From the NCBI RefSeq assembly GCF_002224125.1, contig NZ_NCSM01000065.1:1-64000 (forward strand): 64,000 nucleotides of DNA. Direction: 5' to 3'. Under the pieces are notes generated by a model that made no database searches, was not told the DNA's origin, and worked only from the letters and a program-made list of their open reading frames with translations. Both the position numbers and the translations under genes were made by a program. The stretch comes from Streptomyces sp. NBS 14/10. GTDB taxonomy: Bacteria > Actinomycetota > Actinomycetes > Streptomycetales > Streptomycetaceae. Below, one piece after another: positions 30,218 to 63,391 of the stretch. Every line of letters begins with the position of its first letter. Within the stretch, counting starts at the first letter, position 1.

Positions 30218-30245
30218 TTTATCTGGCATCTACGCGCGTTACGAT
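30218..30245 (+). promoter_or_regulatory. Nucleoside-regulon promoter and operator of the BMP lipoprotein gene
   Basis: A -10 box TACGAT (30240-30245) directly follows the 12-mer ATCTACGCGCGT (30228-30239), which is also found before add and deoC. A weak -35 (TTTATC) lies 16 bases upstream. A wider imperfect GCATC...GATGC symmetry (30226-30247) encloses the site. A repressor bound here would cover the -10 box. Confidence 0.7.
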
Positions 30246-30296: not shown

Positions 30297-31337
30297 GTGC
30301 GCCGGGTATCCAGCATCGCCGTCGCGGGCATAGGCATCACCGCCCTCGCGTTCACCACCACGGCCTGTGGTGGCAGCAGCTCGTCCGACTCCAAGAAGGA
30401 TAAGGGCGTCGCCATCGCCTATGACGTGGGCGGGCGTGGCGACCAGTCCTTCAACGACGCCGCGTACGCGGGCTTCGTCAAGGCCAAGAAGGAACTGGGC
30501 GTCAAGGGCGACGACATCGAGCCGTCCGAGGGCGAGTCCGACGCCGACAAGGTGCAGCGCCTGACCGAGCTGGCCCGCGAGGGACACAACCCGGTCATCG
30601 CCGTCGGGTTCGTCTACGCCCCGGCGGTGAAGGAGGTCGCCAAGAAGTACCCGAAGATCACCTTCGGCCTCGTCGACGATGACACCGTCCACATGAAGAA
30701 CGTCGTGAACATGGTGTTCAACGAGGAGCAGGGCTCCTACCTGGCGGGTGTGGCGGCCGCCCTGACCACCAAGTCCAAGACGGTGGGCTTCGTCGGCGGT
30801 GTGGAGAACCCGCTGATCAAGAAGTTCGAGGCGGGTTACGTCCAGGGTGTGCACGACACCGACAAGTCGGTCAAGGTGAAGGTCCAGTACCTGACCCAGC
30901 CGCCTGACTACAGCGGCTTCAAGAAGCCCGACGCCGGCAAGGACACCGCCAACGGCCAGCTGGACGGCGGCGCGGACGTCATCTACCAGGCCGCGGGCGA
31001 CTCGGGCAGCGGTGTCATCGAGGCCGCCGCCACGCGCGGCAAGTGGGCCATCGGCGTCGACAGCGACCAGTACACGCAGAAGGGTCTGGCCAAGTTCAAG
31101 ACCAAGATCCTGGCCTCGGCGACCAAGGCCGTCGACGAAGCCGTCTTCAACCTGGTCAAGTCCGTCAAGGACGGTAAGCCGCAGACCGGTACGGTGCGCT
31201 ACGGCCTCAAGACGGGCGGCGTCGGCCTGGCCGACTCCAACCCCGAGTACAAGAAGATGACCAAGGTCGTCGAGGCGGTCGAGACCGCGAAGAAGAAGAT
31301 CATCAGCGGTGAGATCAAGGTCAAGACGACGCCGTAA
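30297..31337 (+). CDS. BMP-family nucleoside-binding lipoprotein
   Basis: This 346-residue lipoprotein is the substrate-binding part of an ABC importer of the BMP/PnrA family, which binds purine or other nucleosides outside the cell. A lipoprotein signal ends at C24 (FTTTACGGSSS). The family motifs YDVGGRGDQSFNDAAY and FVGGVENPLIKKFEAGYVQGV follow, then the ligand-site region GVDSDQYTQ. The GTG start has an AAGGGGAA ribosome binding site. The ATPase and two permease genes follow, together with cytidine deaminase and thymidine phosphorylase, so the cargo is very likely nucleosides. Confidence 0.92.
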   Translation: MRRVSSIAVAGIGITALAFTTTACGGSSSSDSKKDKGVAIAYDVGGRGDQSFNDAAYAGFVKAKKELGVKGDDIEPSEGESDADKVQRLTELAREGHNPVIAVGFVYAPAVKEVAKKYPKITFGLVDDDTVHMKNVVNMVFNEEQGSYLAGVAAALTTKSKTVGFVGGVENPLIKKFEAGYVQGVHDTDKSVKVKVQYLTQPPDYSGFKKPDAGKDTANGQLDGGADVIYQAAGDSGSGVIEAAATRGKWAIGVDSDQYTQKGLAKFKTKILASATKAVDEAVFNLVKSVKDGKPQTGTVRYGLKTGGVGLADSNPEYKKMTKVVEAVETAKKKIISGEIKVKTTP

Positions 31338-31510: not shown

Positions 31511-33078
<1,568 letters not shown>

Positions 33079-33082
<4 letters not shown>

Positions 33083-35642: not shown

Positions 35643-36061
35643 TGACCACGGGCGCGACCCCGACCGCGAGCGCGCCGGTCGACTGGGAAGCGCTGCGCGC
35701 AGCGGCCCGGGGCGTGATGTCCCGGGCCTACGCCCCGTACTCCCGCTACCCCGTGGGCGCCGCGGCGCTGGTCGACGACGGCCGCACGGTGACCGGCTGC
35801 AATGTGGAGAACGCGGCGTACGGTGTCGCGCTGTGCGCCGAATGCGGCCTGGTCTCCGCCCTGTTCGCCTCGGGCGGCGGCCGGCTGACCGCGTTCACCT
35901 GCTGCGACGGCGACGGCGCGGTGCTGATGCCCTGCGGCCGCTGCCGCCAGCTGCTGTGGGAACACGGCGGCCCGGAGCTCCAGGTGGACACCGCCTCCGG
36001 CATCCGCCCGCTCGCCGAACTCCTCCCGGACGCGTTCGGTCGCAACGACCTGGAACGCTGA
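35639..36061 (+). CDS. cdd: Cytidine deaminase
   Basis: This 140-residue zinc enzyme deaminates cytidine and deoxycytidine to uridine and deoxyuridine. The zinc ligands are C66 in CAEC and C99 and C102 in PCGRC, and E68 is the catalytic base. The substrate-binding NVENAAYG is at residues 55-62. The start ATG at 35639 overlaps the permease stop, and a second ATG follows directly. Length fits the small tetrameric class. It hands its product on to thymidine/uridine phosphorolysis. Confidence 0.93.
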   Translation: MMTTGATPTASAPVDWEALRAAARGVMSRAYAPYSRYPVGAAALVDDGRTVTGCNVENAAYGVALCAECGLVSALFASGGGRLTAFTCCDGDGAVLMPCGRCRQLLWEHGGPELQVDTASGIRPLAELLPDAFGRNDLER

Positions 36062-36114
36062 GCGAGCTCTCCCCGCTCTCCCCGCTCGCCCCGATGAAAG
36101 GCCCGCACCTCACC

Positions 36115-37395
36115 ATGGACGCCATCACCGTCATCCGCGCCAAACGCGACGGCGGCCGTCTCACCGACGCCCAGATCGACTGGATCATCGACGCCTATAC
36201 GCGCGGTGAGGTCGCCCACGAGCAGATGTCCGCGCTCGCGATGGCGATCTACCTCAACGGCATGGACCGCGCGGAGATCGCCCGCTGGACCGCCGCGATG
36301 ATCGCGTCCGGCGAGCGTATGGAGTTCTCGTCCCTTGCGCGCCCGACCGCCGACAAGCACTCGACCGGCGGCGTGGGCGACAAGATCACCCTCCCGCTGG
36401 CCCCGCTGGTGGCTGCCTGCGGCGCGGCCGTACCGCAGCTGTCCGGGCGCGGCCTCGGCCACACCGGCGGCACGCTCGACAAGCTGGAGTCCATCCCCGG
36501 CTGGCGGGCGCAGCTCTCCAACGAGGGAATGCTGCGGGTGCTCGAAGACGTCGGCTCCGTCATCTGCGCGGCGGGCGAGGGGCTGGCGCCCGCTGACCGC
36601 AAGCTGTACGCGCTGCGCGATGTGACCGGGACCGTGGAGTCGATCCCGCTGATCGCGAGCAGCATCATGTCGAAGAAGATCGCCGAGGGCACCGGCTCGC
36701 TGGTGCTGGATGTGAAGGTCGGCTCCGGCGCCTTCATGAAGGACCTGGCCTCGGCGCGGGAGCTGGCCGCCACCATGGTGGGCCTGGGCACCGACCACGG
36801 GGTCCGTACGGTCGCCCTGCTCACCGGCATGGCCACCCCGCTCGGCCGCACCGCGGGCAACGCCCTCGAGGTCCGCGAGTCCGTGGAGGTCCTGGCGGGC
36901 GGCGGCCCGGCCGACGTCGTCGAGCTCACCCTCGCCCTCGCCCGGGAGATGCTGGACGCGGCGGGCCTGCCGGACGCCGACCCGGCCAAGGCCCTCGCGG
37001 ACGGCTCCGCGATGGACCACTGGCGCCGCATGATCGCCGCCCAGGGCGGCGCCCCGGACGCGCCGCTGCCCGTCGCCCGCGAACAGCACGTGGTGACGGC
37101 CGAGTCGACCGGGGTGCTGACCGGCCTGGACGCGTACGCGGTCGGCGTCGTCGCCTGGCGGCTCGGCGCGGGCCGGGCCCGTAAGGAGGACCCGGTGCAG
37201 GCGGGGGCGGGCGTGGAGATCCACGCCAAGCCGGGGGACGCGGTACGGGCGGGCGATCCGCTGCTGACGCTGCACACGGACACACCGGAGAAGTTCGACT
37301 ACGCGCTCGAGGCGCTGGCGGGGGCGGTGAGCTACGCCCCGCCGGGGACGGAGTTCACCCCCGAGCCGATCGTCCTGGACCGCATCGCGCGGTAA
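36115..37395 (+). CDS. deoA: Thymidine phosphorylase
   Basis: This 426-residue enzyme splits thymidine (and deoxyuridine) with phosphate to the base and deoxyribose-1-phosphate. The phosphate-binding KHSTGGVGDK is at residues 81-90. The family signature SGRGLGHTGGTLDKLESIPG and the MSKKIAEGTGSLVLDVKVGSGAFMK region follow. I prefer the ATG at 36115 (MDAITVIRAKRDGG); an in-frame ATG at 36094 has no ribosome binding site. It is the last gene of the nucleoside operon and ends at a strong bidirectional terminator. Confidence 0.93.
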   Translation: MDAITVIRAKRDGGRLTDAQIDWIIDAYTRGEVAHEQMSALAMAIYLNGMDRAEIARWTAAMIASGERMEFSSLARPTADKHSTGGVGDKITLPLAPLVAACGAAVPQLSGRGLGHTGGTLDKLESIPGWRAQLSNEGMLRVLEDVGSVICAAGEGLAPADRKLYALRDVTGTVESIPLIASSIMSKKIAEGTGSLVLDVKVGSGAFMKDLASARELAATMVGLGTDHGVRTVALLTGMATPLGRTAGNALEVRESVEVLAGGGPADVVELTLALAREMLDAAGLPDADPAKALADGSAMDHWRRMIAAQGGAPDAPLPVAREQHVVTAESTGVLTGLDAYAVGVVAWRLGAGRARKEDPVQAGAGVEIHAKPGDAVRAGDPLLTLHTDTPEKFDYALEALAGAVSYAPPGTEFTPEPIVLDRIAR

Positions 37396-38896: not shown

Positions 38897-38910
38897 ATGC
38901 TGTGCAGCAT
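38897..38910. promoter_or_regulatory. Candidate LysR operator ATGCTGTGCAGCAT
   Basis: A perfect 14-base inverted repeat (arms ATGCTG/CAGCAT) lies in the 125-base gap between the MFS and LysR starts. It is a plausible binding site for the divergent regulator. Confidence 0.5.
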
Positions 38911-38964
38911 CAGCCGAGGCCAGCGAGGTCATTGTCACGCCCCCGCAATGAAAAAGACATTCCC

Positions 38965-40826: not shown

Positions 40827-40857
40827 ATGACACGATCTACGCGCGTAGGGGTATGGT
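40827..40857 (+). promoter_or_regulatory. add promoter with nucleoside operator
   Basis: -35-like ATGACA (40827-40832), the perfect palindrome CTACGCGCGTAG (40837-40848) in the spacer, and -10 TATGGT (40852-40857), followed by six bases and the add ATG. Operator, -10 box and start have almost the same arrangement as at deoC. Confidence 0.78.
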
Positions 40858-40863
40858 GCGCAG

Positions 40864-42030
40864 ATGACGAGCGAGTACCAGGACCGCCCCACCCCCGAGC
40901 AGATCCGCCGCGCCCCGAAGGTGCTGCTGCACGACCACCTCGACGGCGGGCTGCGCCCCGCCACCGTCGTCGACCTCGCCCGTGAGACGGGCTATGACGG
41001 GCTGCCGAAGAGCGATCCGGCGGAGCTCGGCCGCTGGTTCCGGGAGGCCGCCGACTCCGGTTCGCTCGAGCTCTACCTCGAGACCTTCGCGCACACCTGT
41101 GCCGTCATGCAGACCCGCGACGCGCTGTTCCGGGTCGCCGCCGAATGCGCCGAGGACCTGGCCGAGGACGGGGTCGTCTACGCGGAGGTGCGCTACGCCC
41201 CCGAGCAGCATCTGACCCGGGGGCTGACCCTGGAACAGGTCGTCGAGGCGGTCAACGAGGGCTTCCGCGAGGGGGAGCGGCGGGCCCGGGAGAAGGGTCT
41301 GCGTATCCGCGTCGGCGCCCTGCTCACCGCGATGCGCCACGCCGCCCGCGCCCTGGAGATCGCCGAACTCGCCAACGGCTACCGTGACCACGGCGTCGTC
41401 GGCTTCGACATCGCGGGCGCCGAGGCGGGCTACCCGCCCACCCGCCACCTCGACGCCTTCGAATATCTCAAGCGGGAGAACAACCACTTCACGATCCACG
41501 CGGGCGAGGCATTCGGGCTGCCCTCGATCTGGCAGGCGCTCCAGTGGTGCGGCGCCGACCGGCTCGGCCACGGCGTCCGCATCATCGACGACATCGAGGT
41601 GGCGGACGACGGGAGCGTGACCCTCGGCCGGCTCGCCTCATACGTCCGGGACAAGCGCATCCCGCTGGAGCTGTGCCCGACCTCGAACCTCCAGACCGGC
41701 GCGGCCCGTTCGTACGCCGAGCACCCCATCGGGCTGCTGCGCCGACTGCAATTCCGGGCGACCGTGAATACGGATAATCGTCTGATGAGCGGCACAAGCA
41801 TGAGTGATGAATTCGAGCACCTCGTTTCGACGTTCCACTACACGCTCGACGACATGCAATGGTTTACGGTCAATGCAATGAAATCGGCGTTCATTCCTTT
41901 TGATGAACGTCTGGCGATGATCAATGACGTGATCAAGCCCGGGTATGCCGAATTGAAGTCCGAATGGCTGTTCCGTCAGATGGCCTCCGCATCACCCCTG
42001 ACCAGGTGGTCTCACGTCGAGGGCGGCTGA
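40864..42030 (+). CDS. add: Adenosine deaminase
   Basis: This 388-residue TIM-barrel zinc enzyme deaminates adenosine and deoxyadenosine to inosine and deoxyinosine. The metal ligands and catalytic residues are in [21 protein letters not shown] and [13 protein letters not shown]. The start codon lies six bases after the -10 box, so the message is probably leaderless. The last 270 bases (about 41755-42000) use far more A- and T-ending codons than the rest, while the family sequence continues normally. The promoter carries the nucleoside-regulon operator. Confidence 0.93.
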
Positions 42031-42176
42031 CGACGGCTGATCTCGCGGAGCGGGAAGCGGACCGGGATAAACGGCCGGAAGGCAAGTGAGGGGCGCTTTT
42101 CCGGGTTTGCGGAAGGCCGAAATCCATGGCTACGTTGCCGTACCGGTCAAGCCCCCGTCTCAAGGACAGATTTCTG

Positions 42177-42482
42177 ATGAAGCAGGGAACCATCAAGACC
42201 CTCGGTGCCATTGCCCTCGGTGCGGTCGCCGTCATTGCCGGAGGCGGCACCGCGGCTGCGGCCGGCAACGCTCCGGTCGGGCCCGCGAGCCCCGGTATGG
42301 GGGGCATGAGCGCCGGGCAGGCGAAGGCGGCCGTCGGGCAGGGGCCCGCACCCGCACCCGGACCCCAGGCTCAGGCCCCGCGGCCGGGTCAGCCCGGCCC
42401 CAACAAGACCCTGTTGGACAACCTCCCCATCAGCCCCAACGCCCTGAAGGCCAGCGGCCTGCCGGGCGGTCTGCTGGGCTGA
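42177..42482 (+). CDS. Small secreted protein of unknown function
   Basis: This 101-residue protein has a signal peptide (TIKTLGAIALGAVAVIAGGGTAAAA) and a mature part rich in P, G, A and Q that ends in LLDNLPISPNALKASGLPGGLLG. The ATG at 42177 has an AAGGA ribosome binding site. No family is recognised. It resembles small exported proline-rich proteins of streptomycetes. A strong terminator follows. Confidence 0.72.
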   Translation: MKQGTIKTLGAIALGAVAVIAGGGTAAAAGNAPVGPASPGMGGMSAGQAKAAVGQGPAPAPGPQAQAPRPGQPGPNKTLLDNLPISPNALKASGLPGGLLG

Positions 42483-42501
42483 CCCGCGTACTGTCGGGCA
42501 A

Positions 42502-42540
42502 GTGGGGCCCGCACACCCGGTCCGGGTGTGCGGGCCCCAC
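42502..42540. terminator. Terminator after the small secreted protein gene
   Basis: An 18-base perfect stem GTGGGGCCCGCACACCCG with a three-base loop, ending 58 bases past the stop. It lies before the convergent VanZ gene and may serve both strands. Confidence 0.9.
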
Positions 42541-42566
42541 TGTGTGCTGCCGCGTGCTGCGCTGCC

Positions 42567-43154
42567 CTACCGCGCGACCCCGACGCTGTGCACGGAACGG
42601 GCCACGGCCTGGGTGCCGCCCCCGGCCCGTTCCCCTTCCCGGCCCTCGTCGCCCCCGTCCCGGGAGAGGGCGGCGGTCCGCCGCCGGTCCGCCAGCCGGC
42701 GGAGCCACGACCGTGTGGCGGGGACGACCGCGAGGTGAGCCAGCGCCACGCCCGCCGTGTTGAGCAGCACCGTGTCGACGTTCATGATCTGGCCGGTGAG
42801 CTCGCTGTGCACCAGCGCCATCGTCAGGGAGACCATCGCGCCGGTGAAGACCGTACGGACGAACGAGGCGAGCGGGTAGACCGTCACCCGGCCCCCCGCC
42901 AGCGGCAGCAGCACGCCAAGCGGCGAGAGCAGCAGCAGCCCGCCGCCGATGCTGCGGGTGGCCTCCCAGGGGCCGAGCGCCAGATCGGCGCGGATGGTGG
43001 CCAGCGGCTCCAGGGTCACGGCGGTCACCCAGGGCGCGGACAGGGGGCGCAGGGTCAGCCAGCACACATACGCGAGATGTGCGGCGAGGAGGACGAATCC
43101 CGCGGCGCGGAAGCGGAAGGCGGCCCTGCGGCGGCCGGAACCATGACCCTGCAC
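42567..43154 (-). CDS. VanZ-family membrane protein
   Basis: This 195-residue VanZ-like protein has four to five hydrophobic helices (FVLLAAHLAYVCWLTL, GGGLLLLSPLGVLLPLAGG, TVFTGAMVSLTMALVHSELT) and the typical VDTVLLNTAGVALAHLAV. VanZ gives low-level teicoplanin resistance in some bacteria, but most homologues have no tested role. A charged tail of 40 residues follows. Its place before the afsQ system is conserved in related genomes as far as I recall. Confidence 0.82.
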   Translation of the reverse strand: MQGHGSGRRRAAFRFRAAGFVLLAAHLAYVCWLTLRPLSAPWVTAVTLEPLATIRADLALGPWEATRSIGGGLLLLSPLGVLLPLAGGRVTVYPLASFVRTVFTGAMVSLTMALVHSELTGQIMNVDTVLLNTAGVALAHLAVVPATRSWLRRLADRRRTAALSRDGGDEGREGERAGGGTQAVARSVHSVGVAR

Positions 43155-43299
43155 GACTCTCAGGACGCCTGTTGCGGGGGTCGCGGTTCCGGCCGAGCCG
43201 CGCTGGTGAGAAACGGGTTACCGGTGAGTCGGCCAGAAGCGGGAAGGACGGCGGGAGCGCGGGCCGCAATCGCCACGCGCGGCTGGGGCGCGCAGAGCG

Positions 43300-43902
43300 T
43301 CAGGAGACGAGTACGCCCGAAGTGACCGCGATCTCGGGGTGGCGGCGCATCTCCCCCGTGCACTCGTACCGCTTGAGCGGATCCCGGCCCGCGTCCGGGC
43401 CGCCGAGCACCACCCGGTGCCTGGAATCCGCCACGGTGGTCTCCGCGAAGGTGCAGACGATCTGCGCGAGCGCGTACGACTGAAGCTCCTCCGGCAGCCG
43501 GTTCAGCCGCAGCGCGCCGTCCGGGTCGCCCTTGGCCGGTCCGGAGATCCGCACCCAGTCCTCGACCGCGGTGGAGAACCCCGCCTCCTCCTCGGCCCTC
43601 GACGGCGGCTCCTGCATCTGGTCCAGCAGCGCACGGGCGACCTGAAGCGGCTCGGGCGGCGCCTTCTCGTCCGTCAACCGCGCCGACCGGCTCACCGAGA
43701 GGATCCGCGAGGTGCAGATCAGATAGACCCGTACGGTGACCCGGCCCGCCCCCTCGGCCGACCGGCCGGGCTCGGGCGCCTGACACGACGCGCGCGAGGG
43801 GGCGGGGCCCGCGTCGACCGGCACCGACGTACCGCGGATGCCGCATCCCGAGGCCAGCAGTGCCACCGCCCCGAGCAGCGCGCCCGCCGCTCGCCGCCTC
43901 AT
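43300..43902 (-). CDS. Lipoprotein coupled to the AfsQ2 sensor kinase
   Basis: This 200-residue exported lipoprotein has the lipobox LLASGC (C20) after an ALLGAVAL hydrophobic stretch. The mature part has no known domain, but four well-spaced cysteines (APEP.. C40, C63, C149 and C180) may form disulphides. Its ATG overlaps the stop of afsQ2 (ATGA), so the two are co-translated. It may help the sensor detect an outside signal, which is inferred only from the coupling. Confidence 0.75.
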   Translation of the reverse strand: MRRRAAGALLGAVALLASGCGIRGTSVPVDAGPAPSRASCQAPEPGRSAEGAGRVTVRVYLICTSRILSVSRSARLTDEKAPPEPLQVARALLDQMQEPPSRAEEEAGFSTAVEDWVRISGPAKGDPDGALRLNRLPEELQSYALAQIVCTFAETTVADSRHRVVLGGPDAGRDPLKRYECTGEMRRHPEIAVTSGVLVS

Positions 43903-45524
43903 CGCTCGCTCCCCTCGTCCGGGCCGTCCTGGCCGCCCTGCCGGTCGCCACCCTCGCCACCGCTCTGGCCGCCGCCCTCGCTACCGCCTTGGTCCGGTTC
44001 GCTCAGCCGTGAGGCGTCCATGGGCAGCCGCAGCGTGAAGACGGCTCCGCCGTCGGGAGAGTTGTCCGCGGTGATCTCGCCGCCGTGGATATGCGCGTTC
44101 TCCAGCGCGATCGACAGGCCGAGTCCGCTGCCCTCCGACCGGGGCCGGGAGGCGCTGGCCTTGTAGAAGCGGTCGAAGACATGCGGAAGCACATCCTCGG
44201 GGATGCCCGGGCCGTGGTCCCGGACCCGGATCAGCAGATCGTCGTCCTCGGGCCGCACCGAGACCCGCACCGGCGAGCCGCCGTGCTTGAGGGCGTTCCC
44301 GATCAGATTGGCGAGGATGACGTCCAGCCGCCGGGGGTCGAGCCGGGCCATGATGCCGCGCTCCGCGTCGAGCTCGACGGCGTCCAGCCAGGCCCGGGCG
44401 TCGATGCAGGCCGTCACCTGGTCCGCGACGTCGACGTCGTCCAGGACCAGCCGTGCCGTGCCCGCGTCGAAGCGGGTCACCTCCATCAGATTCTCCACCA
44501 GGTCGTTCAGTCGCCGCGTCTCGCTGACCACCAGCTGCACCGCCGGGGCGATCATCGGGTCGAGCGCGTCGGTCTCCTCCTCCAGCACCTCAGTCACCGC
44601 CGTGATCGCGGTGAGCGGGGTACGCAGCTCATGCGACATGTCCGCGACGAAGCGCCGGCTGGACGCCTCCCGCGCGCTCAGCTCCTCCACCCGCTTCTCC
44701 AACCGCTCCGCGGCCCGGTTGAAGGTACGGGAGAGATTGGCGAGCTCATCGGTGCCGGAGACCTCGAGCCGGGTGTCGAGATGCCCCTCGCCCAGCCGGT
44801 GCGCCGCCTCGCCAAGACGCTGCACCGGCCGCAGCACGGTGGCCGCGGCGGCCTGCGCGAGCAGCGCGGAGCCGATCAGCGCGAGGGCGGTGGCGATGCC
44901 CAGGGACCAGGCCAGGGAGTTGAGGTCCTGGCGCTCGGTCTCCAGGGATTTGAGCATGTAGCCGGTCGGCCCGCCGCCGTTCACGTGGGCCCCGCCGATC
45001 AGATACGGGGTGCCCTGCAGCGTGATCCGCTGCCAGTAGAGGTGATACGGGGAGGTATTGGAGCCCGCGACGGCGCGTTTCTTGTCGACCGCGCTCCGTA
45101 GTGCATCGGGCACCGTCTTGAGTGTCAGCAGATCGTCCGCTGAGGCAGCGGTGCACGGGCCGCCGCCCTCGGTCCGGGCGATCAGCAGCACCTCGTACTT
45201 CTGGCTGTTGTCCGCCATCCGATCCGCGGCGTCCTGCAATTCGGGACAAGTCGGCACGGCGGGCAGCGGGTCCGTGGCCTCCTTCAGCGACTTGCTGAAG
45301 TCGTCCAGCGCGGCGTCCTGGGTGCGTGTGAGCACCGCGTCACGATTCAGCCAGTACGCGATCGCCGACGCGGACACGGCGGCCGCCAGCGCCACCAGAC
45401 CGAAGACGAGCATCAGCCGCAGCCGCAGGCTCAGCCACCGCAACAGCCCCGCGGCCCAGCCACGCGCCCGGCTGGGCTTCCCTCCCCCAGCTACCGCTGG
45501 GTGGTGCCCCCTCTCCGCGCTCAA
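43899..45524 (-). CDS. afsQ2: AfsQ2 sensor histidine kinase
   Basis: This 541-residue sensor kinase has an N-terminal basic tail, a transmembrane helix near residues 34-58, an extracellular domain up to about 200, a second helix (ATALALIGSALLAQAAAATV), a HAMP domain, and the kinase core with H298 in SHELRTPL, N-box NLIGNALKHGG and G-boxes (DHGPGIPED, GSGLGLSIA). Together with AfsQ1 it controls antibiotic production and development in S. coelicolor. The apparent start is TTG at 45524, and residues 7-16 (HHPAVAGGGK) are encoded by a dispersed palindromic repeat. The natural start may have been changed by this repeat. Confidence 0.9.
   Translation of the reverse strand: MSAERGHHPAVAGGGKPSRARGWAAGLLRWLSLRLRLMLVFGLVALAAAVSASAIAYWLNRDAVLTRTQDAALDDFSKSLKEATDPLPAVPTCPELQDAADRMADNSQKYEVLLIARTEGGGPCTAASADDLLTLKTVPDALRSAVDKKRAVAGSNTSPYHLYWQRITLQGTPYLIGGAHVNGGGPTGYMLKSLETERQDLNSLAWSLGIATALALIGSALLAQAAAATVLRPVQRLGEAAHRLGEGHLDTRLEVSGTDELANLSRTFNRAAERLEKRVEELSAREASSRRFVADMSHELRTPLTAITAVTEVLEEETDALDPMIAPAVQLVVSETRRLNDLVENLMEVTRFDAGTARLVLDDVDVADQVTACIDARAWLDAVELDAERGIMARLDPRRLDVILANLIGNALKHGGSPVRVSVRPEDDDLLIRVRDHGPGIPEDVLPHVFDRFYKASASRPRSEGSGLGLSIALENAHIHGGEITADNSPDGGAVFTLRLPMDASRLSEPDQGGSEGGGQSGGEGGDRQGGQDGPDEGSER
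45482..45511. repeat. 30-base palindromic dispersed repeat (copy 2, in afsQ2)
   Basis: The same repeat as at 25006-25036, in the other orientation and with one mismatch, lies within the first 16 codons of afsQ2. Its palindromic core is CCCAGC-GGTA-GCTGGG. Confidence 0.82.
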
Positions 45525-45540
45525 CGCTTCGCTACCCCGC

Positions 45541-46227
45541 TCACTGTGGCGTGTCCAGCCGGTATCCGACCCCGCGCACCGTACGGATCAGCGTCGGGGA
45601 CGACGGTACGTCCTCCACCTTCGCGCGCAGTCGCTGTACGCAGGCGTCCACCAGCCGGGAGTCACCGAGATAGTCGTGCTCCCACACCAGCCGCAGCAGC
45701 TGCTGCCGCGACAGCGCCTGCCCCGGTCTGCGGCTCAGCTCCAGCAGCAGCCGCAGTTCAGTGGGGGTGAGCTGGAGGTCCTGGCCGTTCTTGGTCACGG
45801 TCATGGCCGCGCGGTCGATGACCAGAGAGCCGAACGACGCCGAGTCATTGGCCTCCCGCTCACCGCGGCGCAGCACCGCACGGATCCGGGCGTCGAGCAC
45901 CCGCCCCTGTACGGGCTTGACCACATAGTCGTCCGCGCCCGACTCAAGACCGACCACGACGTCGATGTCATCGCTCCGCGCGGTCAGCAAGATGATCGGC
46001 AGCTGGTCGGTGCGCCGGATGCGGCGGCACACCTCGAAGCCGTCGATGCCGGGCAGCATCACATCCAGCACGATCAGATCCGGCCGCTGCTCGCGCAGCA
46101 GTTTCAGGCCGTCCTCGCCGGTCGCCGCCGTCGCCACGCGGTGGCCCTGGCGGGACAGGGAGAGTTCGAGGGCCGTGCGGATGGCGTCGTCGTCCTCGAT
46201 CAGCAGAAGGAAAGGCACGTTGGTCAT
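45541..46227 (-). CDS. afsQ1: AfsQ1 response regulator
   Basis: This 228-residue OmpR-family regulator has a receiver domain with D12, D13 and phosphoacceptor D55 (LIVLDVMLPG), K104-region VVKPVQ, and a C-terminal winged helix (DLQLTPTELRLLLELSRRPGQALSRQQLL, then RTVRGVGYRL). Phosphorylated AfsQ1 binds GTnAC-n6-GTnAC sites; one such site is in the gap with sigQ. It is transcribed divergently from sigQ and just upstream of afsQ2. Function is from known Streptomyces work on this system, while the motifs are seen directly. Confidence 0.92.
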   Translation of the reverse strand: MTNVPFLLLIEDDDAIRTALELSLSRQGHRVATAATGEDGLKLLREQRPDLIVLDVMLPGIDGFEVCRRIRRTDQLPIILLTARSDDIDVVVGLESGADDYVVKPVQGRVLDARIRAVLRRGEREANDSASFGSLVIDRAAMTVTKNGQDLQLTPTELRLLLELSRRPGQALSRQQLLRLVWEHDYLGDSRLVDACVQRLRAKVEDVPSSPTLIRTVRGVGYRLDTPQ

Positions 46228-46294
46228 TCTGGCCTACAAGGGGCCTGTAGTTCGACCGTCAGGCAGTCAGGAGGTTCATTCACCTCCTACCCCT

Positions 46295-46310
46295 GTGACG
46301 AGCCTGTGAC
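46295..46310 (+). promoter_or_regulatory. AfsQ1 box GTGAC-n6-GTGAC
   Basis: GTGACGAGCCTGTGAC lies between afsQ1 and sigQ and matches the reported AfsQ1 consensus exactly. It is therefore the likely site by which AfsQ1 activates sigQ (and perhaps itself). Confidence 0.78.
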
Positions 46311-46421
46311 AGTCGGCAGACAGGGCCATGAAACTGGCCCGGCAATCTTTTGGGCACCGGGAGGAACGCAGACCCGGGAAGCACAAGGAACCGAGCAAGC
46401 TCTACCGACGGGGGGCGCGAC

Positions 46422-47246
46422 ATGAACACACTGCACTTCAACAACGCCAGCGCAGTCATTCGCACGCGCCTCCACGACGCCGGCCGGAGCAACGAGAAGT
46501 CCGGTGCCGTGAGCGGGCGGGGGTGCGCTCGCGGCGCCGGGCGTCAGCGGCCTCCTTATGTGGTGGCCATTGACGCGTACACGGGGGCCCCTGGGAACAC
46601 GGGCCCGGGGGGACCGGTGGAGCCGGCCGGCTCCAAGGAAGAGGGGGGCTCCGCGGACCAGGGGGGCCGCGGAGGAAGCGGGGGAAGCTCGTACAGGGAG
46701 GCATCGGGGGAGCGGTGCGGGACGTCGGAGGTGGAATTCACCGCCTACGTCCAAGAGCGCCGCGCCTCCCTGTACGCCACCGCCTACCACCTGACCGGTG
46801 ACCGGTTCGAGGCCGAGGACCTGCTGCAGAGCGCGCTGTTCTCGACCTACCGGGCCTGGGACCGGATCAGTGACAAGGCGGCGGTCGGCGGCTATCTGCG
46901 CCGCACCATGACCAATCTGCACATCAGCGCCTGGCGTCGGCGCAAGCTCAACGAGTACCCGACGGAGGAGCTGCCGGAGACGGCGGGAGACCACGACGCG
47001 ATGCGCGGCACCGAGCTGCGCGCCGTGCTGTGGCAGGCCCTGGCCCGGCTGCCCGAGCTGCAGCGCACGATGCTGGTGCTGCGCTACTACGAGGGCCGGA
47101 CGGACCCGGAGATCGCGGACATTCTCAACATCAGTGTCGGAACGGTCAAAAGCGGCATCTGGCGCTCGCTGCGCCGGCTGCGCGAGGACGAAGCCCTCAG
47201 CTTCGGCCGGGACGAGGAGGAGTCCTTCGGCGAGCTTGTCGCCTGA
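46422..47246 (+). CDS. sigQ: SigE-family sigma factor SigQ
   Basis: This 274-residue sigma factor has a regular sigma-70 region 2 (YVQERRASLYATAYHLTGDRFEAEDLLQSALFSTYRAW, from about residue 108) and region 4 (LPELQRTMLVLRYYEGRTDPEIADILNISVGTVKSG). The first 105 residues are a low-complexity glycine-rich extension with a conserved-looking MNTLHFNN start. In S. coelicolor SigQ is the divergent partner of AfsQ1/AfsQ2 and acts in the same stress and antibiotic control. The ATG at 46422 is chosen, since an upstream in-frame start at 46350 would overlap the AfsQ1-driven promoter. Confidence 0.88.
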   Translation: MNTLHFNNASAVIRTRLHDAGRSNEKSGAVSGRGCARGAGRQRPPYVVAIDAYTGAPGNTGPGGPVEPAGSKEEGGSADQGGRGGSGGSSYREASGERCGTSEVEFTAYVQERRASLYATAYHLTGDRFEAEDLLQSALFSTYRAWDRISDKAAVGGYLRRTMTNLHISAWRRRKLNEYPTEELPETAGDHDAMRGTELRAVLWQALARLPELQRTMLVLRYYEGRTDPEIADILNISVGTVKSGIWRSLRRLREDEALSFGRDEEESFGELVA

Positions 47247-47254
47247 GGATGAAC

Positions 47255-47345
47255 GGGGGATACGGGGGAAAGCGGGGGGACCACGGGGGCCGGCGTTCGG
47301 GGGAGCGTCGGTAGTACGGGGGAAGCACGGGGGATCACGGGGGAA
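47255..47345 (+). promoter_or_regulatory. G-quadruplex-type tract in the sigQ 3' region
   Basis: Starting eight bases after the sigQ stop, eight runs of five or six G follow in 91 bases. The first four (47255-47259, 47264-47268, 47274-47279, 47285-47289) have loops of four to six bases, a good intramolecular G-quadruplex motif in the mRNA-like strand. Confidence 0.6.
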
Positions 47346-47351
47346 ACGAGC

Positions 47352-47391
47352 GGGTCCGGACGGCCGGGGGGTCTGTCCGGGCCCGTCTTTT
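47352..47391 (+). terminator. Probable sigQ terminator
   Basis: An imperfect 12-base stem GGGTCCGGACGG / CTGTCCGGGCCC followed by GTCTTTT lies 106 bases after the sigQ stop, beyond the G-rich tract. Confidence 0.7.
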
Positions 47392-47392
47392 C

Positions 47393-47424
47393 GTTACGCC
47401 GTTACGCCGTTACGCCGTTACGTC
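47393..47424. repeat. Tandem repeat GTTACGCC
   Basis: Three exact and one variant copy of an eight-base unit lie between the convergent ends of sigQ and the uridine kinase gene. They are probably simple slippage. Confidence 0.7.
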
Positions 47425-47467
47425 AAGCGGCATCGCGCTGTCGCCGCGGCACATCCAGGCGCGCGCC

Positions 47468-48130
47468 TCAAGAGGTCCTGCTCGGCGACGCCGGCTCCGC
47501 GGTTCTCGGGCTGGCGCAGGCCCGGCCGGAGGCCGCGGCGGCGGCGATCCGGCCCAGCGCGACATCCTTCCCGCACGGATACGCCCCGAGCGCCGTATGC
47601 CGCGCCACGATGCCGCGCTCCGCGCGCATCAGCCGCCAGCCGCGCCGCAGCAGATAGGGCGCGGACTTGCGCCCCTCCCGCAGATCGCGCAGCAGCCGGC
47701 GGCGGAAGGTGGTGGAGGGGCGGCCGCGCAGGCACAGGGCGTCGGCGAGGAGGCCGAGCGCGCGGCAGCGCTCGATGATGTCGGCGGCGAAGATCCCCTC
47801 GGCGATGAAAAGCGGCGAACGACCTATGTCCAGCGGCTCGGCGCCGACGCGGGCGCTGGTGGCGATGTCGTACACCGGCACTGTCGTACGGGACGTACGG
47901 CACAGCGCCTCGATCGCCGCGACCGCGCCGTCCGCGTCCCATGACAGCGGCGAGTCCCAGTCGGCGCCCGCCCCGCCCGGGAGTTGCGGCAGCGAGGGGT
48001 CGTCGCCCTCCTTGTAGAAGTCGTCCAGGTTGAGCACGGGCAGGCCGGTGCGGGCCGCCAGGGACGACTTTCCGGAGCCGGAGGGGCCGGAAAGCAGGAC
48101 GATGCGGGCGGCTATGGGAGGACTGGTCAC
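47468..48130 (-). CDS. udk: Uridine kinase-like P-loop protein
   Basis: This protein of about 220 residues is a nucleoside-kinase-like P-loop enzyme. It has Walker A SGPSGSGKS at residues 14-22, the LNLDDFYKEGDDPSLPQL segment like that of uridine kinases, VPVYDIATS and the LFIAEGIFAADI segment. It would phosphorylate uridine or cytidine to the monophosphate. The GTG at 48130 (VTSPPIAARI) is chosen, since longer forms begin in clearly non-conserved sequence and a CACACT box lies eight bases before it. Its neighbours, both nucleoside and aldehyde enzymes, fit salvage. Confidence 0.8.
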   Translation of the reverse strand: MTSPPIAARIVLLSGPSGSGKSSLAARTGLPVLNLDDFYKEGDDPSLPQLPGGAGADWDSPLSWDADGAVAAIEALCRTSRTTVPVYDIATSARVGAEPLDIGRSPLFIAEGIFAADIIERCRALGLLADALCLRGRPSTTFRRRLLRDLREGRKSAPYLLRRGWRLMRAERGIVARHTALGAYPCGKDVALGRIAAAAASGRACASPRTAEPASPSRTS

Positions 48131-48225
48131 GGGATACCAGTGTGAGGCATGGCGCCGCCGGAGGGACCCCTCAGGTCGTGTGGTGTTCCCCCGGCGGTCG
48201 CGCGGCGTTCGCCCGGTGCGGTGTG

Positions 48226-49137
48226 CTAGACGCCCATCGGGTGCCACACCGTCTTCGTCTCCAGGAAGGCCAACAGCCGGGCCGTGCCCGGGTCGGCCGA
48301 CCAATCCACAGGCTGTGGACGGACGACGCGCTTGAGGTTGTCCGCGGCGGCCTCCTCCAGTGAGCGGGCCAACTCCGCGTCCGCACCCGCGCCCGCGAGG
48401 TCGATCGCGTTGACGTCCTGATGGGCGGCGAGCGGGGTGGCGATCTCGGCGGTGCGGCCGGAGAGCACGTTGACCACGCCGCCCGGGAGGTCCGAGGTGG
48501 CCAGGACCTCGCCGAGGGACAGGGCCGGGAGCGGGGCGCGCTCGCTGGCCACGACCACGGCCGTGTTGCCCGTGACGATCGCCGGGGCGATCACGGAGAC
48601 CAGCCCGAGGAACGACGACTCCTGCGGCGCCAGCACGGCCACCACACCGGTCGGCTCCGGCGTGGAGAGGTTGAAGTACGGGCCCGCGACCGGGTTGGCG
48701 GCCCCGGCGATCTGGGCGACCTTGTCGGACCAGCCCGCGTACCAGACCCAGCGGTCGATCGCGGCGTCCACGACGGCGGCGGCCTTGGACTTGCCAAGCC
48801 CCTCGGCGTCGCCGACCTCCCGCGCGAACTGCTCGCGGCGGCCCTCCAGCATCTCCGCGACGCGGTAGAGGATCTGGCCGCGGTTGTACGCCGTGGCCCC
48901 CGACCAGCCGCCGAACGCCTTGCGGGCGGCGACGACCGCGTCGCGCGCGTCCTTGCGGGAGGAGAGCGGCGCGTTGGCGAGCCAGCGGTCTTTGCCCGCC
49001 GCGCCAGCGGCTGATGTCGCTGTCGTCACCTCGTACACCCGCCCGCTCTCGGACCGGGGGAACTTGCCCCCGACGAAAAGCTTGTAGGTCTTGAGAACGC
49101 CCAGGCGCTCGTCATGCTTTTCGGACTTCTCAGACAT
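48226..49137 (-). CDS. Truncated aldehyde dehydrogenase-like protein without catalytic domain
   Basis: This protein of about 303 residues matches the N-terminal and NAD-binding parts of aldehyde dehydrogenases (GVVAVLAPQESSFLGLVSVIAPAIVTGNTAVVV) but ends before the part with the catalytic cysteine. There is no FNQGQ-C motif. It is well preserved and not disrupted, and it overlaps the full-length aldehyde dehydrogenase gene by eight bases, so it is probably a partner or regulatory subunit and not a pseudogene. Such pairs occur in this place in related genomes as far as I recall. Confidence 0.8.
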   Translation of the reverse strand: MSEKSEKHDERLGVLKTYKLFVGGKFPRSESGRVYEVTTATSAAGAAGKDRWLANAPLSSRKDARDAVVAARKAFGGWSGATAYNRGQILYRVAEMLEGRREQFAREVGDAEGLGKSKAAAVVDAAIDRWVWYAGWSDKVAQIAGAANPVAGPYFNLSTPEPTGVVAVLAPQESSFLGLVSVIAPAIVTGNTAVVVASERAPLPALSLGEVLATSDLPGGVVNVLSGRTAEIATPLAAHQDVNAIDLAGAGADAELARSLEEAAADNLKRVVRPQPVDWSADPGTARLLAFLETKTVWHPMGV

Positions 49138-50581
49138 CGAGGTACGCCTCCAGGCCGTGGCGGCCGCCCTCGCGACCGTAACCGGACTCCTTGTAGCCGC
49201 CGAACGGAGAGGCCGGGTCGAACTTGTTGAAGGTGTTGGACCACACCACACCCGCCCGGAGCTTGTTCGCCATCCACAGGATGCGCGAGCCCTTCTCGGT
49301 CCAGATGCCGGCGGACAGCCCGTACGGGGTGTTGTTGGCCTTCGCGACCGCCTCTTCCGGGGTGCGGAAGGTGAGGACGGAGAGCACCGGGCCGAAGATC
49401 TCCTCGCGTGCGATGCGGTGTGCCTGGGTGACGCCGGTGAACAGGGTGGGCGCGAACCAGTAGCCGGAGGCGGGCAGTTCGCACTCCGGGGCCCAGCGCT
49501 CGGCGCCCTCGGCCTCTCCCGCGTCCGCGAGGGTACGGATCCGGGCCAGCTGCTCGGCCGAGTTGATCGCGCCGATGTCGGTGTTCTTGTCCAGCGGATC
49601 GCCGACCCGGAGGGTGCGCATACGGCGCTTGAGCGCGTCGAGCAGCTCGTCCTGGATCGACTCCTGGACCAGGAGCCGGGAGCCCGCGCAGCAGACGTGG
49701 CCCTGGTTGAAGAAGATGCCGCCCACGATGCCCTCGACGGCCTGGTCGATCGGCGCGTCGTCGAAGACGATGTTGGCCGCCTTGCCGCCCAGTTCGAGGG
49801 TGACCTTCTTCTCCGTACCGGCGACCGTACGGGCGATGGCCTTGCCGACCTCGGTGGAGCCGGTGAAGGCGACCTTGTCGATCCCAGGGTGGGCCACCAG
49901 CTCGGCGCCCGTGGAGCCGTCGCCGGTGATGATGTTGACGACGCCCTTGGGCAGCCCGGCCTGGCGGCAGACGTCCGCGAAGAAGAGGGCGGACAGGGGG
50001 GTGGTCTCGGCGGGCTTGAGGACGACCGTGTTGCCCGCGGCGAGGGCGGGGGCGATCTTCCAGGCGAGCATCAGGAGCGGGAAGTTCCAGGGGATGACCT
50101 GGCCCGCGACGCCGAGCGGCTTCGGGTTGTCCCCGTAGCCCGCGTACTTCAGCTTGTCGGCCCAGCCCGCGTAGTAGAAGAAGTGCGCGGCGACCAGGGG
50201 GAGGTCGACGTCGCGCGATTCGCGGATCGGCTTGCCGTTGTCCAGCGACTCCAGGACGGCCAGCTCGCGCGAGCGCTCCTGGATGATGCGGGCGATGCGG
50301 AAGAGGTACTTGGCGCGCTCGGTGCCGGGCAGCGCGGACCACTTCCCGAAGGCCTTACGGGCCGCCTTGACCGCGCGGTCCACGTCCTCGGTGCCCGCGA
50401 GCGAGACTTCGGACAGCGTCTCCTCGGAGGCGGGGGAGACGGTCTTGAAGACCTTGCCGTCGGCGGCCTCGGCGAACTCGCCGTCGATGAAGAGCCCGTA
50501 CGACGGGGCGATCTCGACGACGGAGCGGGACTCGGGCGCGGGCGCGTACTCGAACGCGTTCGTGATGGCTGGGTTCGTCAT
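49130..50581 (-). CDS. Aldehyde dehydrogenase
   Basis: This 483-residue NAD(P)-dependent aldehyde dehydrogenase has the catalytic cysteine in FNQGHVCCAGSRL, the general-base glutamate in VTLELGGKAANIVFDD and the cofactor segments VIPWNFPLLMLAWKIAPALAAGN and FTGSTEVGKAI. It stands just behind deoC, whose reaction releases acetaldehyde, so oxidation of that acetaldehyde is a likely role. Its 3' end overlaps the truncated paralogue. Substrate is inferred from context. Confidence 0.9.
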   Translation of the reverse strand: MTNPAITNAFEYAPAPESRSVVEIAPSYGLFIDGEFAEAADGKVFKTVSPASEETLSEVSLAGTEDVDRAVKAARKAFGKWSALPGTERAKYLFRIARIIQERSRELAVLESLDNGKPIRESRDVDLPLVAAHFFYYAGWADKLKYAGYGDNPKPLGVAGQVIPWNFPLLMLAWKIAPALAAGNTVVLKPAETTPLSALFFADVCRQAGLPKGVVNIITGDGSTGAELVAHPGIDKVAFTGSTEVGKAIARTVAGTEKKVTLELGGKAANIVFDDAPIDQAVEGIVGGIFFNQGHVCCAGSRLLVQESIQDELLDALKRRMRTLRVGDPLDKNTDIGAINSAEQLARIRTLADAGEAEGAERWAPECELPASGYWFAPTLFTGVTQAHRIAREEIFGPVLSVLTFRTPEEAVAKANNTPYGLSAGIWTEKGSRILWMANKLRAGVVWSNTFNKFDPASPFGGYKESGYGREGGRHGLEAYLDV

Positions 50582-50588
50582 GGCAGTC

Positions 50589-51605
50589 TCAGTCCACCGT
50601 CACATAGTCGGGACCGGAGTACCGTCCGGTGCTCAGCTTCTGGCGCTGCATCAGCAGGTCGTTGAGGAGGCTGGAGGCGCCGAAGCGGAACCAGTCGGCC
50701 GTCAGCCAGTCCGCGCCCAGCGTCTCGTTGACCAGCACCAGGTACTTGATGGCGTCCTTGGAGGTACGGATGCCGCCCGCGGGCTTCACCCCGACCTGCA
50801 CCCCGGTCGTGTCCCGGAAGTCGCGGACCGCCTCCAGCATGAGGAGGGTGACGGGGGGCGTCGCGTTGACCGCGACCTTGCCGGTGGAGGTCTTGATGAA
50901 GTCGGCGCCCGCGAGCATCGCCAGCCAGGAGGCGCGGCGCACATTGTCGTACGTCTGGAGCTCGCCGGTCTCGAAGATGACCTTGAGGTGGGCGGCGGTG
51001 CCGCTGCCGTCCGTACGCCGGCACGCCTCCTTGACCTGTCGGATCTCCTCGAAGACCTGGAGATAGCGACCGGAGAGGAACGCGCCGCGGTCGATCACCA
51101 TGTCGATCTCGTCGGCCCCGGCGGCCACGGCCTCCCGAGTGTCGGCGAGCTTGACGGCGAGCGCCGCCCGCCCGGAGGGGAAGGCGGTCGCGACGGAGGC
51201 CACATGGACCTCGGACCCGCCCGCCTCGGCCAGGGCCTGCTTCGCGGTGGCGACCATGTCGGAGTAGACGCAGATCGCCGCGACCTTGGGGACGGAGCGG
51301 TCGGTCGGATCGGGGCTGACCCCCTTGGCGCACAGCGCCCGGACCTTGCCCGGGGTGTCCGCGCCCTCCAGGGTCGTCAGGTCGATCATGGAGATGGCCA
51401 GGTCGATGGCGTACGCCTTCGCCGTGGTCTTGATCGAGCGGGTGCCGAGCGCGGCGGCACGGGCCTGCAGGCCGACCGCGTCGACGCCCGGCAGGCCGTG
51501 CAGAAAGCGGCGCAGCGCGCCGTCGGTGGCGGTCACATCCGCCATCGACGCCAGTCGCTCGGCCGCCTCCGCGCCGTATGCGGGAACTGTGGTGGGCATG
51601 GTCAC
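50589..51605 (-). CDS. deoC: Deoxyribose-phosphate aldolase
   Basis: This 338-residue class I aldolase splits 2-deoxyribose-5-phosphate into glyceraldehyde-3-phosphate and acetaldehyde. The Schiff-base lysine is in ADFIKTSTGK and the second lysine in VGVKPAGGIRT. The N-terminal 50 residues are longer than in E. coli DeoC, as is usual in actinobacteria. The GTG at 51605 lies six bases after the -10 box, which suggests a leaderless message; an ATG two codons later (51599) is the alternative. Its stop is seven bases before the aldehyde dehydrogenase gene, so the genes form one operon under the nucleoside operator. Confidence 0.92.
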   Translation of the reverse strand: MTMPTTVPAYGAEAAERLASMADVTATDGALRRFLHGLPGVDAVGLQARAAALGTRSIKTTAKAYAIDLAISMIDLTTLEGADTPGKVRALCAKGVSPDPTDRSVPKVAAICVYSDMVATAKQALAEAGGSEVHVASVATAFPSGRAALAVKLADTREAVAAGADEIDMVIDRGAFLSGRYLQVFEEIRQVKEACRRTDGSGTAAHLKVIFETGELQTYDNVRRASWLAMLAGADFIKTSTGKVAVNATPPVTLLMLEAVRDFRDTTGVQVGVKPAGGIRTSKDAIKYLVLVNETLGADWLTADWFRFGASSLLNDLLMQRQKLSTGRYSGPDYVTVD

Positions 51606-51611
51606 CAGGGG

Positions 51612-51641
51612 AGCATATCTACGCGCGTAGTCGAATGTCAC
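51612..51641 (-). promoter_or_regulatory. deoC promoter with nucleoside operator
   Basis: On the minus strand: -35-like GTGACA (51636-51641), a spacer of 18 containing the perfect palindrome CTACGCGCGTAG (51619-51630), then -10 TATGCT (51612-51617), six bases and the GTG. The arrangement is nearly identical to that of add. Confidence 0.8.
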
Positions 51642-61672: not shown

Positions 61673-63391
61673 TCAAATACCGGCCGCCGTAGCGAGATCC
61701 GCCTTGATCGCCGACAGGACCTGCTCCGCCGTCGTACGCGCCGACGCGAGCGCGTCCGCCCCGGGGACGTCGACCACCACCTCCAGATAGCACTTGATCT
61801 TGGGCTCGGTGCCGCTGGGGCGGACGATCACCCGGGCCGACTGGACCGTGCTCCCCGGGCTGCTGCCGATGCGGCCGGAGAGGCGGTAGCGCAGCCCGTC
61901 CGTCGGGGGCAGCGTCGCCGTACCGCGCGACAGGTCCTCGCTGGAGGACACGGCGAGGCCCGCGAGCTCGGTGGGCGGCTGTTCGCGCAGCCGCTTCATG
62001 GCCTGACCGATCAGGGACAGGTCCTCGACGCGTACGGACAGCTGGTCGGTGGCGTGCAGCCCGTGCTCGAGCGCGATGTCGTCGAGCAGATCGGTGAGCG
62101 TACGGCCCTGCTCCTTGAGCTCGGCCGTCAGCTCGGCGACGAGCAGGGCGGCCGTGATGCCGTCCTTGTCGCGTACGCCGCCGGGGTCGACGCAGTAGCC
62201 CAGCGCCTCCTCGAAGGCGTAGCGCAGCCCGTCGACCCGGGCCAGCCACTTGAAGCCGGTCAGCGTCTCGGCGTACGGGAGCTCAGCGGCGCCCGCGATC
62301 CGGGACAGGAGGGACGACGAGACGATCGAGGTCGCGAACGTGCCGCGGGCGCTCTTGTGGATGAGGTGGGTCGCGAGAAGCGCACCGACCTCGTCGCCCC
62401 GGAGCATGCGCCAGGCGGTCGCGGCATCGGGTACGGCCACGGCACAGCGGTCGGCGTCCGGGTCGTTCGCGATGATGATGTCCGCGCCCCCGGGGCCGAG
62501 TCGGCCGGCGGTCGCGAACGCCAGGTCCATCGCGCCCGGCTCCTCCGGGTTGGGGAACGCGACGGTCGGGAATGCCGGATCCGGCTCGGCCTGCTCGGCG
62601 ACCACCGTGGGGGCCGGGAAGCCCGCGCGGGCGAAGGCCGCGGTGACCGTCTCACCGCCGACGCCGTGCATGGGGGTATAGACGACGCGTACGTCCCGGG
62701 GGGATCCCGGGGTGAGGACGGCGTCCGTACGGGCGAGATAGGCGTCCAGGACGTCGTCGCCAAGGGTCTCCCAGCCGGAGTCCGGGCGGGGCACGCCGGC
62801 CAGGCCGCCGATCGCGGCGATCTCGGCGGCGATGTCGAGGTCGGCGGGCGGCACGATCTGGGAGCCGTCGCCGAGATAGACCTTGTAGCCGTTGTCGCGG
62901 GGCGGGTTGTGGCTGGCGGTGACCTCCACCCCGGCGACCGCGCCGAGGTGACGGATGGCGAACGCGAGGACGGGGGTGGGGAGCGGACGCGGCAGCAGAG
63001 CGGCCCGGAAGCCCGCGCCGGTCATGACGGCCGCGGTGTCGCGGGCGAAGTCGGCGCTCTTGTAGCGGGCGTCGTAGCCGATGACGACGAGGCCGGGCCG
63101 CTCGCCGGGGGCGGTGTGCTTGGTGAGGTACGCCGCGAGACCGGCGGCGGCGCGGATGACCACGGCGCGGTTCATCCGCATGGGCCCGGCGCCCAGCTCG
63201 CCCCGGAGACCGGCGGTGCCGAACTGCAGGGTGCCGGAGAACCGCTCGGAGAGCTGGTCGAGCGCCTGGGGCTCACCCGCCCCGGCCGCCTCCAGCAGTT
63301 CGGCCAGCTCGTCACGGGTCTCGGGGTCGGGGTCCTCGGCCATCCAGGCGCTGGCCTCGGAGATGAGTTCGGACTCTGGGGTGGGCGCCAT
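61673..63391 (-). CDS. Phosphohexomutase (phosphomannomutase/phosphoglucomutase type)
   Basis: This 572-residue alpha-D-phosphohexomutase has four domains. The phosphoserine loop is VTASHNPPRDNGYKV, the magnesium loop IIIANDPDADR, the sugar-binding loop FEEALGYCVDP and the phosphate loop VRPSGTEPKIK. It interconverts 1- and 6-phosphates of mannose or glucose, or ribose/deoxyribose phosphates if it acts as a phosphopentomutase. The last possibility would link it to deoA and deoC, because deoxyribose-1-phosphate must be isomerised to the 5-phosphate. In the S. coelicolor order, from memory, this gene follows the deoC group. The exact substrate cannot be told from the motifs. Confidence 0.88.
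   Translation of the reverse strand: MAPTPESELISEASAWMAEDPDPETRDELAELLEAAGAGEPQALDQLSERFSGTLQFGTAGLRGELGAGPMRMNRAVVIRAAAGLAAYLTKHTAPGERPGLVVIGYDARYKSADFARDTAAVMTGAGFRAALLPRPLPTPVLAFAIRHLGAVAGVEVTASHNPPRDNGYKVYLGDGSQIVPPADLDIAAEIAAIGGLAGVPRPDSGWETLGDDVLDAYLARTDAVLTPGSPRDVRVVYTPMHGVGGETVTAAFARAGFPAPTVVAEQAEPDPAFPTVAFPNPEEPGAMDLAFATAGRLGPGGADIIIANDPDADRCAVAVPDAATAWRMLRGDEVGALLATHLIHKSARGTFATSIVSSSLLSRIAGAAELPYAETLTGFKWLARVDGLRYAFEEALGYCVDPGGVRDKDGITAALLVAELTAELKEQGRTLTDLLDDIALEHGLHATDQLSVRVEDLSLIGQAMKRLREQPPTELAGLAVSSSEDLSRGTATLPPTDGLRYRLSGRIGSSPGSTVQSARVIVRPSGTEPKIKCYLEVVVDVPGADALASARTTAEQVLSAIKADLATAAGI

Follow-up and report, generated by a model that had tools for sequence, protein, structure and literature searches.

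The window (the whole stretch of 64,000 nucleotides analyzed here, from Streptomyces sp. NBS 14/10) raises the question of whether genes for nucleoside uptake and breakdown that lie well apart in it answer to one regulator through a shared promoter word. An earlier note on this DNA had proposed that a 12-mer, ATCTACGCGCGT, places a BMP lipoprotein gene, add and deoC in one nucleoside regulon. We found the 12-mer exactly at 30228, 40835 and 51617, as that note had stated, and at no other position in the window; with up to one mismatch the count was three against 0.39 expected, and none of 100 shuffles reached three. The nucleoside identity of the three genes also held (PF02608 lipoprotein, adenosine deaminase and deoxyribose-phosphate aldolase). 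The full palindrome CTACGCGCGTAG occurred in the window only at the add and deoC sites (Table 1), the BMP copy being CTACGCGCGTTA and not the full palindrome, in keeping with the note's wording. From these and the following sequence comparisons, we propose that one dimeric DNA-binding protein uses CTACGCGCGTAG as its operator and controls nucleoside use, most likely as a repressor; we put the probability of this reading at about 0.8.

Table 1. Positions of the promoter elements, genes and loci considered in the text (window coordinates unless a contig or locus is given).
Feature	Position	Strand	Basis
Operator variant CTACGCGCGTTA before BMP, right half merged with -10 box	30230..30241	+	sequence; 30/30 genomes
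TACGAT, likely BMP -10 box	30240..30245	+	sequence
BMP-type substrate-binding lipoprotein gene	30297..31337	+	PF02608
Transporter ATPase ORF, first gene of uptake operon	31619..33082	+	PF00005
Pyrimidine nucleoside phosphorylase ORF (deoA), end of uptake operon	35833..37395	+	
TGACAC, possible add -35 box, 18-bp spacer	40828..40833	+	sequence, inferred
Operator CTACGCGCGTAG, add promoter	40837..40848	+	kept in 28/28 loci, 0-1 mismatch
TATGGT, add -10 box	40852..40857	+	sequence; aligned promoters
add, adenosine deaminase, ATG 40864	40864..42030	+	
Aldehyde dehydrogenase, next after deoC, same strand	49130..50581	-	PF00171
deoC, deoxyribose-phosphate aldolase, read from GTG 51605	50589..51605	-	TIGR00126
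TATGCT, deoC -10 box	51612..51617	-	sequence, named-loci alignment
Operator CTACGCGCGTAG within 17-bp deoC spacer	51619..51630	-	exact in 62/62 named loci
TGACAT, deoC -35 box	51635..51640	-	sequence; conserved column block
Phosphohexomutase-family gene downstream of PNP	61673..63391	-	
PNP and its operator	C90:64257-65106, past window end		
purN-purH loci with exact copy	L164, L168, L169, L171, L173, L183, L177		

The genome of this strain (12.1 Mb) contained five exact copies of CTACGCGCGTAG, where Markov models (orders 1 to 4, trained on the window) predict 0.42-0.85. Three of the five belong to the add, deoC and PNP promoters, all within 25 kb; the third of these lies 1.1 kb beyond the window end and precedes the PNP ATG by 20-31 bases (genes outside the window are GC-frame calls with approximate starts). 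No recognizable nucleoside gene was present at the remaining two, C34:291326 and C95:365187, so that the expectation of hits restricted to nucleoside genes was borne out only in part, while the companion expectation of conservation in orthologues was. Exact hits were few and many of them clustered in one nucleoside locus; the many unrelated hits that the note had named as grounds for rejecting its proposal were for the most part not observed. The genome search with two mismatches that it had suggested was uninformative, returning 330 copies versus 1041 for the reversed word, and two mismatches in the window gave 5 copies against 4.63 expected. This lack of enrichment suggests that a near-exact site is needed for recognition.

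Across 61 genomes of the family, this one included, we counted 193 exact copies of the word and 29 of the reversed control word, with at least one exact copy in 60 of the 61 genomes; the 13 same-genus genomes, again with this one, held 52 and 9, respectively. Exact copies were bunched within tens of kb in several same-genus genomes (four within 31 kb in G006 and in G009). For the comparison of promoters we used 30 genomes of the family, which represent 17 genera; the family is taken to be Streptomycetaceae, genus and family names being deduced from named loci. Two genomes with no add match and one cut deoC contig were left out of the counts. The word was present before add in all 28 readable loci (26 exact and 2 with one mismatch), before deoC in 29 of 29 (10 exact, 18 with one mismatch and 1 with two) and before PNP in 30 of 30 (21 exact, 8 with one mismatch and 1 with two). 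In most genera other than Streptomyces, one base of the deoC copy was changed in the half nearest the -10 box. Genome G030, which has no exact copy, still had the word with one mismatch at add and at deoC and with two mismatches at PNP. We also analyzed 80 named Streptomyces PNP loci, counting 79 for PNP (one had fewer than 100 bases upstream), 62 for deoC and 74 for the DeoR-family gene discussed below. The PNP copy, at position -31 or -30, was exact in 78 of the 79 and had one mismatch in the other, and every deoC copy was exact; the bases flanking the operator varied in these loci. Loss of conservation in related genomes, which the note had regarded as fatal, was therefore not observed, the promoter copies being kept across the 17 genera and the named Streptomyces loci.

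The placement of the word within the promoters was examined next to the likely -10 boxes. At add and deoC the boxes and distances were as the note had described them, with six bases from the -10 box to the start codon (ATG 40864; GTG 51605-51603). The deoC start is best read as this GTG, two codons before an ATG, and the GTG was invariant in 62 of 62 named loci. Across the family, the add promoter consists of the operator, 3-4 nt, a TAnnnT box, about 6 nt and the start codon. In Streptomyces the PNP operator lies over the -35 position, with a TACCCT-like -10 box starting 12 nt further on and about 7 nt to the GTG; the PNP site is located further upstream in genera g6 and g9. The distance from operator to -10 box therefore varies (overlap, 1, 3-4 or 12 nt), and some 6-7 nt separate the -10 box from the start codon in add, deoC and PNP, whose promoters are apparently leaderless judging by this spacing. 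When the add region was scanned with a strict sigma-70 consensus, no promoter was reported. We rejected the possibility that the add, deoC and PNP sites are RNA elements because transcription probably starts downstream of them. Most named loci also share another conserved block, CAACGATC, some 25 bases before the PNP operator (L016:7120-7145), which is not present as such in the genome of this strain. The stretch separating deoC from PNP in this genome contains a SUKH-4 immunity-protein gene (PF14435; window 53859-54476), and the phosphohexomutase-family gene beyond it is a possible candidate for the phosphopentomutase role.

The BMP gene was searched in the Streptomyces genomes only, and the identical CTACGCGCGTTA 12-mer was found upstream of it in all 30; eight of the 30 carry two BMP genes, with CTACGCGCGTTA before each. 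The initial expectation that the BMP copy is a decayed operator was contradicted by this identity. At 38 of 38 sites CTACGCGCGTTA runs directly into a TANNNT box (TACGAT in 16, TAATCT in 10 and others in 12), suggesting that the right half of the operator is merged with the -10 box; TANNNT is given as the genome-wide -10 consensus of S. coelicolor in excerpts of PMC7157823. The leaderless reading proposed in the earlier note does not apply to BMP, where about 50 nt separate the -10 box from the start codon. A separate operator copy lies between BMP and the transporter ATPase gene in 17 of the 29 loci assessed (14 exact and 3 with one mismatch; L397 was left out) and is missing in the genome of this strain and 11 others. 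In the 30-genome comparison, a match to the ATPase gene was obtained in 28 genomes and was at least 74% identical in 18 of these; seven of the 18, and so seven of the 28, had an exact copy before the gene. The true start of this gene in the window is probably further upstream than the ORF start given in Table 1. The copy in the BMP-ABC intergenic region is flanked in many species by the arms of an inverted repeat (L396-L416; GTCAAC..GTTGRC in one group and GGGG..CCCC in another) that possibly forms an RNA hairpin. Three of these repeats were folded and gave z values of -3.8, -2.0 and -1.5 against shuffles, one standing well apart.

The same word thus occurs in several promoters of one pathway (add, deoC, PNP and, as a variant, BMP) and is conserved in the orthologous promoters, as expected for a regulon. 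The claim of one nucleoside regulon largely holds, with a set larger than first proposed, since PNP, the ATPase operon in many species and purN in some genera are to be added. An exact copy about 170-210 bases before a purN match, with purH next, was present at seven loci (six g18 genomes and one g19; Table 1), and the 30-genome comparison gave an exact purN copy in two genomes and a one-mismatch copy in two. The operator may therefore also touch de novo purine synthesis in g18 and g19, and the genera with a copy before purN appear to be Kitasatospora-like.

The mechanism that we propose would have the regulator control the breakdown genes add, PNP and deoC-aldehyde dehydrogenase throughout the family and, in Streptomyces, uptake through the BMP lipoprotein and in many species also through the ABC-cdd-deoA operon. 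The bound protein would cover the -35/-10 region, keeping basal expression low, and its release would be triggered by a metabolite derived from nucleosides, either a pentose phosphate or a purine. As to the shared repressor site claimed in the earlier note, the same word in nucleoside promoters and its conservation stand as observed; that a protein binds CTACGCGCGTAG and represses is what we infer from them. We consider it rather unlikely that the full extent of a broader proposal holds, namely that a regulator of a type new to nucleosides, confined to Streptomycetaceae as sampled, runs the pathway from uptake to glyceraldehyde phosphate and in some genera extends to de novo purine synthesis, coupling salvage to synthesis.

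Published expression data bear on the joint control of these genes. In a CelA-producing strain of S. lividans, excerpts of an RNA-seq study (PMC6302529, Table 3) give an increase from 5 to 64 TPM for SCO4917 (PNP), from 7 to 69 TPM for SCO4914 (deoC) and from 11 to 49 TPM for SCO4901 (add). With 136 of 7496 genes up in that study, three of three by chance would have p of about 6e-6 if the genes were independent. The orthologues of add, deoC and PNP were therefore expressed jointly in this one S. lividans contrast, the expression data and the operator sequences coming from different strains. The table is limited to genes of partially known function, and the BMP and ABC genes are absent from it; the three listed orthologues are not treated as a group in that text (PMC6302529, excerpts). 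WblC has been placed at the SCO4914 promoter by ChIP-qPCR in the excerpts of PMC7157823, suggesting that more than one regulator may act there.

Readings other than a repressor site were weighed against the same observations. Spacer-bound activators of the MerR type exist, and low basal expression in the S. lividans reference strain (PMC6302529, excerpts) is compatible with both activation and repression; the deoC spacer has the normal length of 17 bp, however, and the variable distances to the -10 box also argue against an activator, which we consider unlikely. The differing spacing, combined with a constant overlap with the core promoter, leads us to favor a repressor over an activator or a sigma factor. 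Although the location of the word in core promoters could suggest that it is itself part of the promoter recognized by one specific sigma factor, the accompanying -10 boxes are of the common TANNNT type and the word stands at no fixed distance from them, making this very improbable. The chance that the copies are a coincidence in a GC-rich genome is negligible: the word is indeed common once two mismatches are allowed, but its exact copies exceed those of the reversed word about seven-fold in the 61 genomes, and it recurs at the same unrelated promoters in 17 genera. Conservation and variable spacing led us to reject both the chance and the sigma-factor readings.

Within the operator reading, we evaluated which protein might bind the operator. 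A DeoR-family gene is located at C90:67370-68389, 2.3 kb from the PNP operator and 3.4 kb past the window end, and its product, which would sense a pentose phosphate, is a tentative candidate whose chances we rate clearly below even. The gene was found in all 30 family genomes searched (72-100% identity) and in 74 of the 80 named PNP loci, several of the other loci ending early. One f2 genome had no such gene and seven f3 genomes had only 39-45% matches, and these genomes with a poor match or none were also without promoter copies of the word. The logic of the E. coli deo pathway points the same way, as does the DeoR-type sensor domain; such domains respond to sugar phosphates in related proteins, and the only solved-structure match here is a deoxyribose operon repressor. 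The gene's own promoter, on the other hand, carried no operator with up to two mismatches in any of the 30 family genomes, and in the 74 named loci the best site had two mismatches once and otherwise three to five; a separate near-invariant region is present there instead. An operator in the regulator's own promoter is common but not obligatory for DeoR-family control. Homologues of 45-69% identity in 12 of 137 genomes from other genera, 11 of them with nearly the same recognition helix, also count against this candidate, since no operator copy at 0-1 mismatch was present in the stretches read around them; several of the 12 lie beside sugar-type transporters. The DeoR gene promoter is almost invariant over about 90 bases in the 74 named loci (L016:9280-9371) and contains a GAACA-N5-TGTT element, and the gene start is an apparently leaderless GTG. 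In excerpts of the open-licence literature, no nucleoside targets were seen for SCO4920, which the DeoR gene here resembles.

We give about even odds to a regulator encoded elsewhere in the genome, for example of the LacI, GntR or TetR type. In the stretches read, no gene for a regulator had a promoter that carries the operator, and there is evidence against both the linked DeoR gene and the linked LysR gene; a gapless palindrome with a central C-G step would suit a LacI-type protein. This option comes with no specific candidate. The LysR-type protein near add (ORF 38851-39942) is a highly improbable regulator, although 20 of 28 family add loci have a LysR homologue at most about 1.5 kb away. 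It was not seen in the other eight loci, where the stretches were short, its gene is divergent from a transporter gene, a usual LysR target, and the gapless 12-bp palindrome differs from the T-N11-A form. The major-facilitator transporter gene and the divergent LysR gene inside the nucleoside locus (window 37487-39942) could be a nucleoside transporter and its regulator. A TetR gene beyond the DeoR gene is unlikely to be the general regulator: of the 54 named loci that extend far enough, 36 contain it.

The arrangement resembles the E. coli deo regulon, which is controlled by the DeoR and CytR repressors: scattered uptake and breakdown promoters stand under shared operators, and the same steps are covered (deoA, deoC, purine nucleoside phosphorylase and cdd). 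It differs in the operator word, which here overlaps or abuts the -10/-35 region of promoters that are apparently leaderless, and in the addition of purN in some genera. PunR of E. coli is a LysR-type protein, whereas the operator here does not have the LysR form and covers several catabolic promoters. PunR is alike in controlling a purine nucleoside transporter (PMC8376909, excerpts), and a LysR gene beside a transporter gene also occurs in our locus. NupR of Bacillus thuringiensis (GntR/HutC) is likewise a nucleoside-linked transcriptional regulator; in the excerpts of PMC9430930, it is reported mainly for nucleoside transport, with no link to the operator seen here. In the open-licence literature, which was the scope of our search, we found no Streptomyces paper with the operator 12-mer and no described regulator or operator for Streptomyces nucleoside use. 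The 10-base core appeared there in eight papers with unrelated titles, and CTACGCGCG together with Streptomyces proved to be a primer in the excerpts of the paper examined. The operator of a nucleoside regulon thus appears to be undescribed so far. In the course of development, Streptomyces reuse the DNA and RNA of mycelium that lyses, and nucleoside antibiotics are among the products of some of them. With the single conserved 12-bp word as bait, the regulator becomes directly accessible, and the operator itself could be used for nucleoside-responsive expression.

Some copies of the word lie apart from the promoters described above. The eight genomes of two neighboring families contained three exact copies in total, and we rejected an extension of the regulon to them, as two of the three lie within a single coding gene, which by eye resembles guaB, and the remaining one at no recognized nucleoside gene. 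Extra exact copies in G010, G011, G035, G047, G063, G067 and G077 had no tie to a nucleoside gene, nor had one near a thioesterase gene in G034; these are possibly due to chance. In G007, the exact word lies over the first codons of an adenosine deaminase paralogue, 61% identical (L122:6626-6637). In G012, the deoC promoter is apparently duplicated and inverted, with two exact copies 70 bases apart (L123:6900-7060), and the second copy faces a 1241-aa ORF with an IucA/IucC siderophore-synthesis domain.
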